Shown here piece after piece: positions 15,213 to 25,672 of a DNA stretch of 49,323 nucleotides; the stretch's first letter is position 1; the number at the start of each line of letters is the position of its first letter. The position numbers and the translations under genes are program-made. This DNA is from Acidobacteriota bacterium. Its GTDB lineage: Bacteria; Acidobacteriota; Vicinamibacteria; Vicinamibacterales; CAVVIG01. Where the stretch lies: positions 1-49,323 of the forward strand of contig JAGWRA010000123.1 in the NCBI GenBank assembly GCA_028876655.1, in the 5' to 3' direction. The notes below the pieces were generated by a model, which saw nothing but the letters and a program-made list of their open reading frames with translations, ran no database searches and was not told the origin of the DNA.

Positions 15213-15899
15213 TCACGCCGTCGCCTTGTCCACCAGCAGGTTGGCGGCCGCGCGCGTGCCGATGGTGATCGTGCGCCCGTCGCGCGTTCGCAGTTGCACC
15301 GCGTCGGCGGCCGCGTCCCGCCGCTCGACCTCGATCGTCTGCCCGGGCTTCAAATCGTGGCCTTCGATGAACCGCAGGAACTCCGGATCCTGGTTCACCA
15401 CGCGCGCGACCACGAGTGAGGTCGCCAGCGGGCAGGTCAGCAGGCTGTCGAAGTGCCGGTGGCGGATCTCGCCCTCGGGGCCGGGGATGGGATCGCCGTG
15501 GGGGTCGACGTCCGGGCGGCCGAGCATGTCGTCCATCCGTTCGATCAAGCGGTCCGAGACGACGTGTTCGAGCTGTTCGGCTTCCTCGTGCACGTCGGTC
15601 CAGTTCATGCCCATGACCTGGACGAGGAAGAGCTCGACGAGCCGGTGGCGCCGCAGGACGAGGGCGGCCAGCTTCTCGCCGGCGGCCGTCAGCCGCACGC
15701 CGTTGTAGGGTTCGTACTCCACCAGCCCCGATTCGGAGAGGGCCTTCACCATCGTGGTGGCCGATCCGGGCGTGACGCCGAGCGCGGCGGCGAGCTGTCC
15801 CATCTGCACCAGCCGCTGGCTGGGTGGCAGCAGCATCTGGGCCTGGTAGATCGCCTTCAGGTAGTTCTCGACCGTACTCGAGGGGAGCATCGAGGGCAT
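15213..15899 (-). CDS. DtxR/MntR-family metal-dependent transcriptional repressor
   Basis: STVENYLKAIYQAQ..., HTH region, VHEEAEQLEHVVSDRLIERMD, C-terminal FeoA-like domain. Confidence 0.92.
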   Translation of the reverse strand: MPSMLPSSTVENYLKAIYQAQMLLPPSQRLVQMGQLAAALGVTPGSATTMVKALSESGLVEYEPYNGVRLTAAGEKLAALVLRRHRLVELFLVQVMGMNWTDVHEEAEQLEHVVSDRLIERMDDMLGRPDVDPHGDPIPGPEGEIRHRHFDSLLTCPLATSLVVARVVNQDPEFLRFIEGHDLKPGQTIEVERRDAAADAVQLRTRDGRTITIGTRAAANLLVDKATA

Positions 15900-15965
15900 T
15901 CTAGCGTTTTTCCCCCGAACCGCCGATGATGGAGCCGGCGGTCGCGGCGCGGCCGCCGGCAGACC

Positions 15966-16730
15966 ATGTCGCTGCGCGAATCCCTCTCGACGCCCGATGC
16001 GAAGGCCCGCTACGTGCGGCGCCTGTTCGGCACGATCGCGGGCCGGTACGACCTCATCACCGTGCTGCTGTCCTACGGGCGCGATCGGGCGTGGAAGCGG
16101 CGGCTGGCAGGGATGGCCGAGGTGCGGCCGGGCGCGCAGGCCCTCGATCTCGCCTGCGGCACGGGCGACATCACGTTCGATCTCGTCCGCCGGGGCGCGC
16201 GGGCGATCGGCCTGGACATCACGTCGCGCATGATCGATCTGGCGCGCGCGAAGGTGACGGCCGGACGCGCACCTGCCGCAGCCGGCTTCCTCGTCGGCGA
16301 CATGATGGCATTGCCGTTCGGCGACGGTTCGTTCGATCTGGTCACGGCGGGGTACGGCCTGCGGAACGTGCCGGACCTCGACGGGGCGCTCGATGAAATC
16401 CGCCGGGTCCTGACACCCGGCGGCCTGTTCCTGTCGCTCGACTTCGATCGGCCGCCCGGCCGGCTGCTGCGCGTCACCTACCTGGCGTACCTGACCATCG
16501 TCGGATCCCTCGTCGGCCTGGTCCTGCACGGCGATCCCGATACCTATCGCTACATCGCCGAGTCGCTGCGACGGTATCCGGGAGCCGAAGCCGTCGCCGG
16601 CAAGCTGCGCGATCGCGGCTTCACCAACGCCCGGGTCGTGCCGGTGCTGGGCGGCCTGATGGCGATTCACGTGGCGCGGGTGGGTGGCCCCGTTCCTGCG
16701 CCGCCTGCTGGCGCTGCAGGTCCTGCCTGA
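15966..16730 (+). CDS. ubiE: UbiE/MenG-family demethylmenaquinone methyltransferase; C-terminal ~15 aa appears to read into a pseudogene remnant
   Basis: ALDLACGTGDITFDL, GYGLRNVPDLDGALDEIRRVLTPGG; expected end near MAIHVARV. Confidence 0.9.
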   Translation: MSLRESLSTPDAKARYVRRLFGTIAGRYDLITVLLSYGRDRAWKRRLAGMAEVRPGAQALDLACGTGDITFDLVRRGARAIGLDITSRMIDLARAKVTAGRAPAAAGFLVGDMMALPFGDGSFDLVTAGYGLRNVPDLDGALDEIRRVLTPGGLFLSLDFDRPPGRLLRVTYLAYLTIVGSLVGLVLHGDPDTYRYIAESLRRYPGAEAVAGKLRDRGFTNARVVPVLGGLMAIHVARVGGPVPAPPAGAAGPA

Positions 16731-16896
16731 AGGCGCGCTCCGCGCCGTCCACGTACGCCTGATAGCCGGCTGGATCGGCGCGAGCCCGGGAAGACGTCGC
16801 ACGGCAGCGCGTGCAGGACGCGGAACGAACGCTCGAAGTCCGCCGCGATGCCGGGATAGCTCTCGTCGCCCACCAGCCGATAGCCCTGCAGCGCTC
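16684..16896 (-). pseudogene. C-terminal remnant of a subclass B3 metallo-beta-lactamase, internally deleted/frameshifted
   Basis: Minus strand: QGYRLVGDESYPGIAADFERSFRVLHALPCDVFPG, then in another frame ADPAGYQAYVDGAERAFRQDLQRQQAAQ; the segment usually joining these two B3 MBL motifs is missing. Confidence 0.8.
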
Positions 16897-16911
16897 CTTG
16901 ACTGCACGGGC

Positions 16912-16936
16912 CCGTCGCCGGGCCGGGCGGCGACGG
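16912..16936 (-). terminator. Hairpin directly after the stop of the downstream minus-strand hypothetical gene
   Basis: CCGTCGCCG-ggccggg-CGGCGACGG, 9-bp perfect stem adjoining the stop codon at 16937. Confidence 0.55.
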
Positions 16937-17371
16937 CTACCGCGCGACGAATCGCGCGATTTCCGGGAGGAGGAACTCGAGCAGTGCCTCGTCGCCGATC
17001 TCCGCGATCGGCGTCCCCTCGCACACCGGACGCTCGTGGCTCTGGACGCGGCGGCCGCGCTCGTAGCTGACGTGGCACTGGACGACGGGCGTCTGGCCCT
17101 CGGTGTCGAGCGTCAGCTCGAGAAAGTTCTGCGCCGTACGGTCGGACGAGAGCCGCACGCTGCCGGCCGGCGTGGCGACGGTGAACGGATAGCCCTCCAC
17201 TTTCAGCACGTTCGCCAGTTGCCGCAGGACGGGGATCGCCACGCCGTTCAGGAACGTCCCGTAGGCCTCCTCGGCCTCCTGCACGCGGACGCGCCGCTCG
17301 GCCGCGGCCCGCTTCGATTGTTCGATCACTTCCTGCAGCCGGCGGCGGACGTCGGACACTTCCATGAACAA
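16937..17371 (-). CDS. Conserved hypothetical protein
   Basis: MFMEVSDVRRRLQEVIEQSKRAAAERRVRVQEAEEAYGTFLNGVAIPVLRQLANVLKVEGYPF...; coding-like composition. Confidence 0.7.
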   Translation of the reverse strand: MFMEVSDVRRRLQEVIEQSKRAAAERRVRVQEAEEAYGTFLNGVAIPVLRQLANVLKVEGYPFTVATPAGSVRLSSDRTAQNFLELTLDTEGQTPVVQCHVSYERGRRVQSHERPVCEGTPIAEIGDEALLEFLLPEIARFVAR

Positions 17372-17405: not shown

Positions 17406-18617
17406 TCAGATCACGCCCTCGTGCCGCAGCCGCGCCAGCGCGGCGGCATCGAGGCCGGCGTCCTCCGTCAGGACGCGATCGGTGTGCTGGCCGAGGACCG
17501 GCGGCGCTTCCCGCACCGAGCCCGGCGTCTCCGACAGCTTGATCGGGACGCCCAGCAGCCGCAGCGGACCGGCCGTCAGGTGCTCGACCGCCGCCACCAT
17601 CGACCGCTCGGCGAGCTGCGGATCGGTGAAGACCTCGTGCAGGTCGCGCACCGATCCGGCCGGCACGCCGGCCGCGCCGAAGGCGTCGAGCCACTCCTGC
17701 CGCGACCGCTCTCGCAGCCGCTTCGCGAGGATCGGCCGCAGCGTCTCGTAGTTCACGACCCTGTCGCGGTTCCTCGCGAACTGCGGGTCGTCGATGAGCG
17801 CGTCGAGACCGGCGGCCGTGCAGAACGTCCGCCAGAGCGAGTCGTTGCCGACCGCCACGACGAGGGCGCCGTCGGCGGCCTCGAACGTCTCGTAGGGGAC
17901 GATCGTCGGATGCCGGTTGCCCACCCGCCCCGGCGCCCGGCCGGTGGCGAAGTAGGTGGCGGCCTGGTAGCTGAGCAGCGCCGCCACCGAGTCGAGCATG
18001 CCGACGTCGATGTACTGGCCGAGCCCCGTCCGCTCGCGCGCGAACAGCGCCAGCGTGATCCCCTGCGCGGCGAACAGGCCGGTGACGATGTCCGAGATGG
18101 CGACGCCGAGCCGGTACGGCGGACCGTCGGCCGCCCCCGTGATGCTCATGAGCCCGCCTTCGGCCTGCATGATGGCGTCGTAGCCGGGCCCGTTGCGGCG
18201 CGGGCCGGTCTGGCCGAATCCCGAGATGGAACAATAGACCAGCCGGGGATGGCGCTCCCGGAGGTCGTCGTAGGCGAGGCCGAGCTTCGCCAGCGTCCCG
18301 GGCCGGAAGTTCTCCACCAGCACGTCGGCGCGCGCGATCAGGGCGTCGAGGACGGCTCGCCCCTCGGGCTGCTTGAAGTCGAGCGTCACGCTCTCCTTGT
18401 TCCGGTTGATACTGAGGAAATACGCGCTCTCGCCCTCGACGAACGGCGGACCCCAGGCCCGCGTGTCGTCGCCCCGGCCGGGCCGCTCGATCTTGATGAC
18501 GCGGGCCCCCATGTCGCCCAGCAGCATCGTGCAGTACGGGCCGGACAGGACACGCGTGAGATCCAGGACGGTCAGTCCGGCCAGCGGACCGGACGGGGGA
18601 GCGACTTCCACAGTCAT
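17406..18617 (-). CDS. CaiB/BaiF-family CoA-transferase
   Basis: LAGLTVLDLTRVLSGPYCTMLLGDMGARVIKIERPGRGDDTR; SGFGQTGP. Confidence 0.95.
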   Translation of the reverse strand: MTVEVAPPSGPLAGLTVLDLTRVLSGPYCTMLLGDMGARVIKIERPGRGDDTRAWGPPFVEGESAYFLSINRNKESVTLDFKQPEGRAVLDALIARADVLVENFRPGTLAKLGLAYDDLRERHPRLVYCSISGFGQTGPRRNGPGYDAIMQAEGGLMSITGAADGPPYRLGVAISDIVTGLFAAQGITLALFARERTGLGQYIDVGMLDSVAALLSYQAATYFATGRAPGRVGNRHPTIVPYETFEAADGALVVAVGNDSLWRTFCTAAGLDALIDDPQFARNRDRVVNYETLRPILAKRLRERSRQEWLDAFGAAGVPAGSVRDLHEVFTDPQLAERSMVAAVEHLTAGPLRLLGVPIKLSETPGSVREAPPVLGQHTDRVLTEDAGLDAAALARLRHEGVI

Positions 18618-18649
18618 CGCAGGATAATTGTAGGCGGAAAGGAGACGGG

Positions 18650-18934
18650 ATGCGTGAGATCCGGGTCTACGCAGGATCCAGTTGACGCAGCTGCGAACAG
18701 GTGAGGGAGTTCCTCTCACGTGCAGGCGTCGCGTTCACGGTGCGCCTCGTGGACGAAGACGACACGGCCTACGACGAGCTGATCGCGCTCGGCTTCCGCA
18801 GCGTGCCGGTCACGCTGATCGGTGACCGGGTCATCAGGGGGTACGATCCGGACGCATTGGCGGAGGCGCTGAGGGAGACGGCCCCCGCCCCACCGTCACC
18901 ACATCCGCCAGCAGGGCGTACGCCGTCTGCGTGA
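18650..18934 (+). CDS. Glutaredoxin-like protein with in-frame TGA at 18683-18685, candidate selenoprotein (UxxC)
   Basis: ATG 18650 preceded by AAAGGAGACGGG; reads MREIRVYAGSS-[TGA]-RSCEQVREFLSRAGVAFTVRLVDEDDTAYDELIALGFRSVPVTLIGDRVIRGYDPDAL. TGA replaces the first Cys of CxxC. Confidence 0.75.
18691..18725 (+). promoter_or_regulatory. Putative bacterial SECIS-like stem-loop
   Basis: Upper stem GTGAGGG/CTCTCAC with loop AGUUC (18708-18712, G in second position), lower stem CTGC/GCAG; loop begins 22 nt after the TGA. Confidence 0.6.
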
Positions 18935-19937
18935 GGCTGGAGTCGCGCTGCACGATCGCGAACCGCCCGAGCAGGTCGGTGTCGATCTCGAGCGCGTTCT
19001 CGCCCCCCCGCAGGCCGGCGAGCAGGTCGGCCGCGGGCAGTTCCTCTGGCGCGACGCGGGTCTCGATCGTGCCGCCGCGGCGGGTGGCCGAGCAGACCAG
19101 CTTGATCCGGTGCCCGCCCGCCGCTGCCGCCTCGACCGCGGCGCGCGCGACGCCGCCGATGCCGGTGCGGCGCACGTCGTGCGGCGTGAGGCCGGCGCCC
19201 ATCAGCACGTTGGCGAGCGCCGCGGTCTTCGCCGCGGCATCCCAGCCGTCGACGTCCAGCGAGGCGTCCGCCTCGGCAATGCCCGCCGCCTGCATCTCGG
19301 CCAGGGCCTGCTCGAACCCGCGCCCCTCTTCCATCGCCGTCAGGATGTAGTTGGTCGTGCTGTTGATCACCCCGCGGAAGCCGTACACGGTGACGACCGG
19401 CATCGTCTCGCGCGCGAGGTTGAAGACGGGGATGCCGTCCATCACCGCGCCCTCGAACAGGAAGCGGCGGCCGGCCCGATCGGCCGCCGCCTTCAGCGTG
19501 TCGTACGCGAAGGCCACCGGCCCCTTGTTGGCCGTCACCACGTGCGCCCCGGCCGCCAGCGCCGCCTGCACGTGATCGATCGCGGGCCGCCCGCGTGCGA
19601 TGTCCAGCACCGTGGTCTCGACGACGATCAGGCGACCCTCGGCGGCGGCCGGGTTGTCGCGCGCCGCGTCGCGGATCAGGGCGAGCGCGTCGGCGGCCGG
19701 CGCGACGTCCGCGAGCGTCTCGAGCCGGTGGCCGCCTTCGACCGCCGCGAGCGCGGCCGCCGGGTCGAGGCCCGCCGGTGCCGTCGCCCGCACGCAGCCA
19801 CTGCGCCGCGTCGCGACGCCCGCGAGCCGCACCGTCAGCCCTTCCTCCTGCGCGAGCCGGTCCGCCCGCTCGCCGAGCAGGCGCACGAACCGCCGGCCCA
19901 CGTGACCGAAGCCGAGCAGCAGGAGATCGAGGGTCAT
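18834..19937 (-). CDS. hom: Homoserine dehydrogenase
   Basis: LLLLGFGHVGRRFVRLL, GAHVVTANKGPVAFAYD, GVINSTTNYILTAMEEG. Confidence 0.93.
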   Translation of the reverse strand: MTLDLLLLGFGHVGRRFVRLLGERADRLAQEEGLTVRLAGVATRRSGCVRATAPAGLDPAAALAAVEGGHRLETLADVAPAADALALIRDAARDNPAAAEGRLIVVETTVLDIARGRPAIDHVQAALAAGAHVVTANKGPVAFAYDTLKAAADRAGRRFLFEGAVMDGIPVFNLARETMPVVTVYGFRGVINSTTNYILTAMEEGRGFEQALAEMQAAGIAEADASLDVDGWDAAAKTAALANVLMGAGLTPHDVRRTGIGGVARAAVEAAAAGGHRIKLVCSATRRGGTIETRVAPEELPAADLLAGLRGGENALEIDTDLLGRFAIVQRDSSLTQTAYALLADVVTVGRGPSPSAPPPMRPDRTP

Positions 19938-21070
19938 GCGCCTGCGGTCAGATCACCGAGGAGGTCGGCCATCAGGCCGAGCCCCTTCTCGAGGTGCGCG
20001 GTCTCGTCGCCGAAGCCGATCCGCAGGTGGCCGTCCATGCCGAAGTGATCGCCCGGCACCACCAGCACGCTCTTCTCGTCCCTCAGACGGTTCACGAGCG
20101 TCGTCGAATTGATGTCGTGGTGGTAGCGGACGTAGACGATCGCGCCGGCCTCGGGCGGCACGTAGCTGAAGAGCGCGCGCCGCGCGGAGAGCCAGCGGTC
20201 GATCACCGTCCAGTTCGTCCGGAGGATCCCGCGCGTCCGCTCCAGCAGCTGCGCGCGGCGCCCGGCCTGCAGCGCGATCCGCGCGAGGTAGTCACTGAGC
20301 GCGCCCGGGCAGATCGTCGTGTAGTCGTGGCGGGCCCAGAGCGAGGCGATGAGGTCGGGCGGCGCCACGATCCACCCGATCCGCAGCCCCGGCAGCCCGT
20401 AGGCCTTCGAGAGCCCGCTCGTGATGATGACCCGCTCGTAGCGCCCCCAGGCCGACGCGGTCTCGTGACCATCGCGCTCGGCGCCCCGGTACACCTCGTC
20501 GGCCATCACCCAGATGCCGTGCGGCGCGGCCAGCGCGCAGATGGCGTCCAGCTCGGTGTCGTGGAGGCGCGCGCCGGTGGGATTGTTCGGATTGCAGAGC
20601 AGGATGAGGCGCGTGCGCGGCGTGATCAGCCGCTTCAGCGCGTCGAGATCCACCGCCCAGCGATCGTGGCCGCCGTCGACGAGCCGCAGCGGCCACTCGC
20701 GCACCGTCGCGCCGAAGCTGCGCGCCAGCCCCCAGGTCTGCATGTAGTTCGGCACCATCAGGATGACTTCGTCGCCCGGCTCCACCAGTCGCCAGGTGAC
20801 CAGCAGGTTCGCCTCCGACCCGCCGTTGGTCACCTCGATGTGATCCACCGTCGCCCCCGGGTACTGCTGCGCGACGAGCTCGCGCAGCGCCACCGTCCCG
20901 TTCGACTGCGTGTAGCCGAGGCGCTGCGACAGCAGCGCCCGCACCGCCGCCTCGCCTCCGACCAGGTCCTCGAGCCGCAGCGGATGCACGCCGCTCTCCG
21001 AGAGGTTGTAGGAAACGAGGTTCTCCCAGGTGGACTGCATCCGCTCCATGTCGAACTGTTCGAGCTGCAT
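19934..21070 (-). CDS. Class I/II PLP-dependent aminotransferase
   Basis: LILLCNPNNPTGA, MADEVYRG, SGLSKAYGLPGLRIGW. Confidence 0.93.
   Translation of the reverse strand: MQLEQFDMERMQSTWENLVSYNLSESGVHPLRLEDLVGGEAAVRALLSQRLGYTQSNGTVALRELVAQQYPGATVDHIEVTNGGSEANLLVTWRLVEPGDEVILMVPNYMQTWGLARSFGATVREWPLRLVDGGHDRWAVDLDALKRLITPRTRLILLCNPNNPTGARLHDTELDAICALAAPHGIWVMADEVYRGAERDGHETASAWGRYERVIITSGLSKAYGLPGLRIGWIVAPPDLIASLWARHDYTTICPGALSDYLARIALQAGRRAQLLERTRGILRTNWTVIDRWLSARRALFSYVPPEAGAIVYVRYHHDINSTTLVNRLRDEKSVLVVPGDHFGMDGHLRIGFGDETAHLEKGLGLMADLLGDLTAGA

Positions 21071-24211: not shown

Positions 24212-25672
<1,461 letters not shown>

Follow-up and report, generated by a model that had tools for sequence, protein, structure and literature searches.

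The grxU locus and its gene neighborhood

The window analyzed here is the whole of a 49,323-nucleotide stretch of acidobacterial DNA (contig C70), taken from an assembly of 4.19 Mb in 281 contigs that is ~97% complete. It contains a short candidate selenocysteine (Sec)-glutaredoxin gene, for which we coin the name grxU; this gene and its flanking features are listed in Table 1. The TGA at codon 12 is the sole internal stop of the open reading frame, and reading through it joins MREIRVYAGSS to RSCEQVREFLSRAGV. The resulting frame matches the Pfam Glutaredoxin domain (PF00462) over residues 6-62 (E = 2.6e-11; score 44 bits, cut-off 22.9). A first-pass annotation made from the DNA letters had proposed a frame at 18650-18934 with its ATG start, AAAGGAG ribosome-binding site and in-frame TGA; direct reading found these correct and placed them, the TGC cysteine codon and the terminal stop at the positions in Table 1. 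Its further claim, that the single in-frame stop falls on the first cysteine of a CxxC motif, was borne out by a UxxC motif with cysteine at +3.

Table 1. Features of the grxU locus (window positions).
Feature	Position	Strand	Remarks
Class III CoA-transferase, divergent neighbor	17406..18617	-	ATG at 18617; Pfam CoA_transf_3, E 2.7e-143 from residue 46; beside grxU in most family loci
Ribosome-binding site AAAGGAG	18638..18644	+	5 nt upstream of ATG 18650; direct reading
grxU, predicted Sec-glutaredoxin gene	18650..18934	+	94 residues, U at 12 (translation with TGA = U); stop TGA 18932-18934
TGA, putative selenocysteine codon 12, first position of U-R-S-C	18683..18685	+	TGA in 26/26 members; aligned with the Sec-replacing Cys of 7c10
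TGC, resolving Cys codon	18692..18694	+	Cys in 26/26 members
SECIS-like hairpin	18701..18719	+	7-bp stem 18701-18707/18713-18719, loop 18708-18712; all cells paired; rare-codon constraint
Homoserine dehydrogenase, convergent neighbor	18834..19937	-	Pfam Homoserine_dh, E 3.7e-46; 3' end antisense over grxU; conserved beside grxU
PLP-dependent aminotransferase	19934..21070	-	Pfam Aminotran_1_2, E 4e-44; conserved near grxU

In most family loci grxU lies between the gene for a class III CoA-transferase and those for a homoserine dehydrogenase and a PLP aminotransferase. The start of the divergent CoA-transferase is 32 bp from grxU in the window; a longer mechanical reading frame for this neighbor extends to 18719 and overlaps grxU, and its first ~43 residues are mostly unconserved. 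Three loci (L054, L056 and L069) have grxU co-oriented with its neighbor genes, so that the local orientation has changed while the position has been kept. Two syntenic loci are without grxU: ~31 bp separate homoserine dehydrogenase and CoA-transferase in one (L083, in a genome with no selD match), and ~75 bp lie between the two matches in the other (L084, in a genome with no selA match). At a third locus, in a sel-positive genome (L082), ~1 kb lies between these two genes and contains no grxU match. Most of the tested relatives that lack grxU are also without a close homoserine dehydrogenase homologue. This pattern hints at a functional link between grxU and the homoserine dehydrogenase, although shared descent may explain it.

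Two other multidomain open reading frames of the window were noted. A 621-aa frame at 15213-17078 (-) carries a DtxR/MntR-type repressor and a FeoA domain in its C-terminal third; no Pfam family matches its N-terminal 400 residues, which are partly matched in L066-L068, and the frame possibly joins a transporter to its regulator. At 24212-25672 (+), ThiS, ThiF and rhodanese (sulfur carrier, activating enzyme and rhodanese) are joined in one frame.

Conservation of the TGA codon and the stem-loop

A search of 60 relatives identified a close grxU homologue with an active-site TGA in 20 genomes, all 20 with cysteine at +3; the regular expression used for collection left the first position free and demanded the cysteine. 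These homologues and the named loci together gave a family of 26 distinct sequences from Vicinamibacterales-type Acidobacteriota, in which the first active-site codon is TGA without exception (26/26) and the cysteine at +3 is encoded by TGC in 25 members and by TGT in the remaining one. The named relatives with grxU are all Acidobacteriota MAGs ('gp6', Vicinamibacterales, Luteitalea; one is titled Terriglobia). As every collected member has TGA at the same codon, a chance occurrence is excluded, and its recurrence in assemblies of more than 20 different genomes makes sequencing error untenable. Distant homologues in the phylum include TGA forms as well as forms with cysteine (TGC or TGT) at the Sec column (L076, L079 and L081); Sec and Cys thus alternate at the active-site column, as is expected of a selenoprotein. 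The alternative envisaged at the first pass, random stops among the homologues of close relatives, was not what these sequences contained.

Several further sequences were observed alongside the family. One additional copy beyond the 26 (L021) has CGA in place of TGA and a frame broken near the 3' end, with the hairpin kept; its genome (G058) has selA, selB and tRNA-Sec, and L021 is apparently a decaying selenoprotein gene. Another genome (G047) has two grxU copies (L020 and L026) on two contigs, with a GERGERGER repeat inserted before the last strand, possibly strain variants that were binned together. Other Acidobacteriota (L028, L029, L075 and L080) have a second family of glutaredoxin-like genes, more distantly related, with the motif SQPGUxxC and an in-frame TGA.

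The hairpin of the window begins 15 nt past the TGA and has the stem GTGAGGG/CTCTCAC. The first-pass annotation had described this upper stem, with an AGUUC (AGTTC in the DNA) loop 22 nt after the TGA, together with a lower stem CTGC/GCAG. The positions of the upper stem-loop are correct and it forms in 26/26 members, with pairing in 100% of cells (alignment A2, columns 19-25 with 31-37); the lower stem is less well supported, being kept in 67% of cells across the family, and the conserved element is therefore the upper stem-loop. The stem has one pair with a compensatory A-U to G-C change (window and L019); of the other pairs, two vary on one side and four are invariant, as is the GU in the loop. 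Bacterial SECIS elements are expected to carry a guanosine in a small apical loop (PMC1088965), and the grxU hairpin presents such a loop just 3' of the TGA.

Covariation in the stem is modest, with its one compensatory pair, and a control with slid versions gives similar covariation scores; the main RNA-level evidence is for this reason a test of codon usage. In a genome of ~70% GC, the stem is written with CTT in 24/26 members, TCA in 25/26, AAA for 17/24 lysines and TTT for 15/17 phenylalanines, compared with 4/82, 0/23, 4/28 and 9/58, respectively, downstream of the stem in the same genes (Fisher P = 9e-18, 4e-13, 4e-5 and 6e-8; the sequences are related, and these values overstate their independence). 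When the peptides were re-encoded in 2000 runs with codons drawn according to background usage, the full 7-bp stem formed in a mean of 0.07 of 26 sequences and a maximum of 2, against 26/26 observed. The stem codons are thus strongly indicated to be under RNA-level constraint. An Rfam search of 18600-18950 gave no match at the gathering score and no SECIS family. The single-sequence folding energy of the window hairpin is not significant (z = -1.6), so the RNA case rests on the family.

Selenocysteine machinery and the reading of the TGA

All four components of the Sec pathway sought at the suggestion of the first-pass annotation are encoded in the same assembly. The tRNA-Sec (G000:C47:7453-7549) scores 60.6 bits against a cut-off of 47, with anticodon TCA assigned by ARAGORN, and family searches identified selA on C60 (543 bits, cut-off 268), selB on C67 (331 bits, cut-off 242) and selD on C251 (343 bits, cut-off 125). 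This selD (L098, G000:C251:64700-65900) itself has an in-frame TGA at the catalytic position (CAGUASK), which indicates that the genome uses Sec elsewhere too. A potential hairpin, CGCTCAG-GTT-CTGAGCG, follows the SelD TGA in the window genome; it was recognized by eye, and the 60-nt segment has a different minimum-energy fold. Most SelD genes of the relatives likewise have an in-frame TGA at this position. Among the 60 relatives, grxU is present in 20/49 with a selA match and 0/11 without one (Fisher P = 0.007). Points against the Sec reading are the absence of grxU from 29/49 selA-positive relatives, the CGA of L021, the lack of an Rfam SECIS match and the non-significant folding energy of the single sequence.

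These data bear on three other readings of the locus. If a cysteine codon had decayed or been misread to TGA, the gene might start at GTG 18701 or be no gene at all; the mechanical frame is indeed interrupted, and the related copy L021 looks degraded. However, the same TGA stands in 26/26 members from many independent assemblies, with coding intact on both sides, and the stem codons are constrained at the RNA level. The family-wide conservation of the TGA refutes a pseudogene or an error, and we regard either as exceedingly improbable. Slightly less remote, though still very improbable, is that the TGA encodes another residue, through general reassignment of UGA (e.g. to Trp) or selenium-free readthrough. 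In-frame TGA codons in several family genes and in SelD would fit this, but TGA terminates most family genes, including that of the window, and so is not a general sense codon; moreover, the TGA lies in the catalytic Cys column, and the genome has tRNA-Sec, SelA, SelB and SelD.

SECIS-dependent decoding of UGA is conditional on selenium supply, and with the CoA-transferase start so close to grxU, the TGA and hairpin could act mainly as a regulatory switch, a stop unless selenium is plentiful, that controls the neighboring gene. Against this, the residues that follow the TGA are conserved and the protein is predicted to form a complete redoxin fold, which argues that full-length translation has been selected; there is very little chance that such a switch is the main role of these elements. 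Taken together, the presence of the sel genes and the conservation of TGA and stem-loop in all 26 members support the original proposal of Sec insertion over random decay. On this sequence evidence, the TGA of grxU is almost certainly read as selenocysteine.

Predicted fold, proposed mechanism and relation to known systems

AlphaFold2, run on the family alignment, predicted a thioredoxin-like order of elements with a pLDDT of 90.8. The best solved structural matches to this model are an Archaeoglobus glutaredoxin and the dithiol form of cGrx1 (7c10, TM-score 0.85 by query), and by sequence, too, 7c10 ranks first among solved proteins (profile E = 2.5e-20). In its native form, cGrx1 of Clostridium oremlandii is a selenoprotein; its active site is U(or C)PXC, and Sec was changed to Cys for structure determination (PMC7642778). 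The Cys that replaces Sec in 7c10 aligns with U12 of the grxU protein.

We consider it very highly probable that the window genome encodes a UxxC Sec-glutaredoxin whose UGA codon 12 is read with the help of Sec-tRNA(UCA), SelB and the in-gene hairpin and which would work by selenolate chemistry. Sec-tRNA(UCA), delivered by SelB, would decode the UGA, with SelB binding the hairpin just downstream. From the motif and the precedent of cGrx1, the U12 selenolate would then attack a disulfide or oxidized substrate and the cysteine at +3 (C15) would resolve the intermediate, after which a reductase would recycle the enzyme. NrdH receives its electrons from thioredoxin reductase. A thioredoxin reductase scores above its cut-off in the window genome, and the GSH-S_ATP domain of glutathione synthetase was not found in a search with that one family of an incomplete assembly; on these grounds NrdH-like reduction of the grxU product by thioredoxin reductase appears likelier than reduction by glutathione. 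A broader proposal seems doubtful on present evidence: that grxU defines a Sec-redoxin subfamily specific to Vicinamibacterales-type Acidobacteriota, with no close Cys form found in the order, which disappears when Sec synthesis is lost, depends on thioredoxin reductase and not on glutathione for its reduction, and serves a specific partner in the aminotransferase/homoserine dehydrogenase/class III CoA-transferase cluster. If true, this would make it a new functional subtype of Sec-glutaredoxin.

Sec-glutaredoxins with a UxxC motif were described in 2005-2006 (PMC1088965, PMC1794560) and are listed in a 2026 review (PMC13188914), according to which the species known to have them are limited in number; one, that of C. 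oremlandii, has been studied experimentally. In the papers searched, we found no report of this protein from Acidobacteriota. The kind of protein (Sec-glutaredoxin, UxxC, PF00462) is thus already known, and grxU joins it as a new member, spread across its lineage and fixed in its gene neighborhood. It brings a Sec-glutaredoxin to the Vicinamibacterales-type Acidobacteriota, soil bacteria that are widespread and mostly uncultured, and indicates that much of this order has kept Sec decoding. Standard ORF calling either shortens these genes or overlooks them. The 26 members form a clean SECIS set with strong codon-level constraint that can be used to test bacterial SECIS finders, and the fixed neighborhood offers a testable lead to the physiological partner of the grxU product.

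Comparison with curated families placed grxU outside several related groups. Its product scores below the NCBIfam curated cut-offs for NrdH (TIGR02194; 49.3 bits vs 85.75), YruB-type glutaredoxin (TIGR02196; 56.9 vs 88.55), the UXX-star families (NF041212, 28.3 vs 66 bits; NF047338, 19.8 vs 97 bits) and Grx3, and these assignments were rejected. The NrdH and YruB-type glutaredoxins are, like the grxU product, small single-domain redoxins, and the NrdH structures 4hs1, 4fiw and 1h75 match its model; unlike it, both are typically Cys proteins. The UXX-star (seleno)proteins are glutaredoxin-like with Sec at the equivalent site, whereas the grxU family retains the second Cys.

The closest characterized relative, C. 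oremlandii (OhILAs) cGrx1 (PDB 7c10, 7c12, 7c13), shares the glutaredoxin fold and Sec at the aligned site, with an identity of ~38%. It comes from a Firmicute, where its partner is a Sec-MsrA. The window genome has one MsrA match, which is without an in-frame TGA, and a corresponding partnership for grxU was rejected. The reductant described for cGrx1 is GSH, whereas the GSH-S_ATP search of the grxU genome gave no match. With the bacterial Sec-glutaredoxin family (PF00462; representative WP_010943784.1 in PMC13188914 and PMC9312934), compared by motif and domain, grxU has the Pfam domain and UxxC motif in common; that family is known from limited species, while the grxU branch belongs to Acidobacteriota and has its own fixed gene neighborhood.
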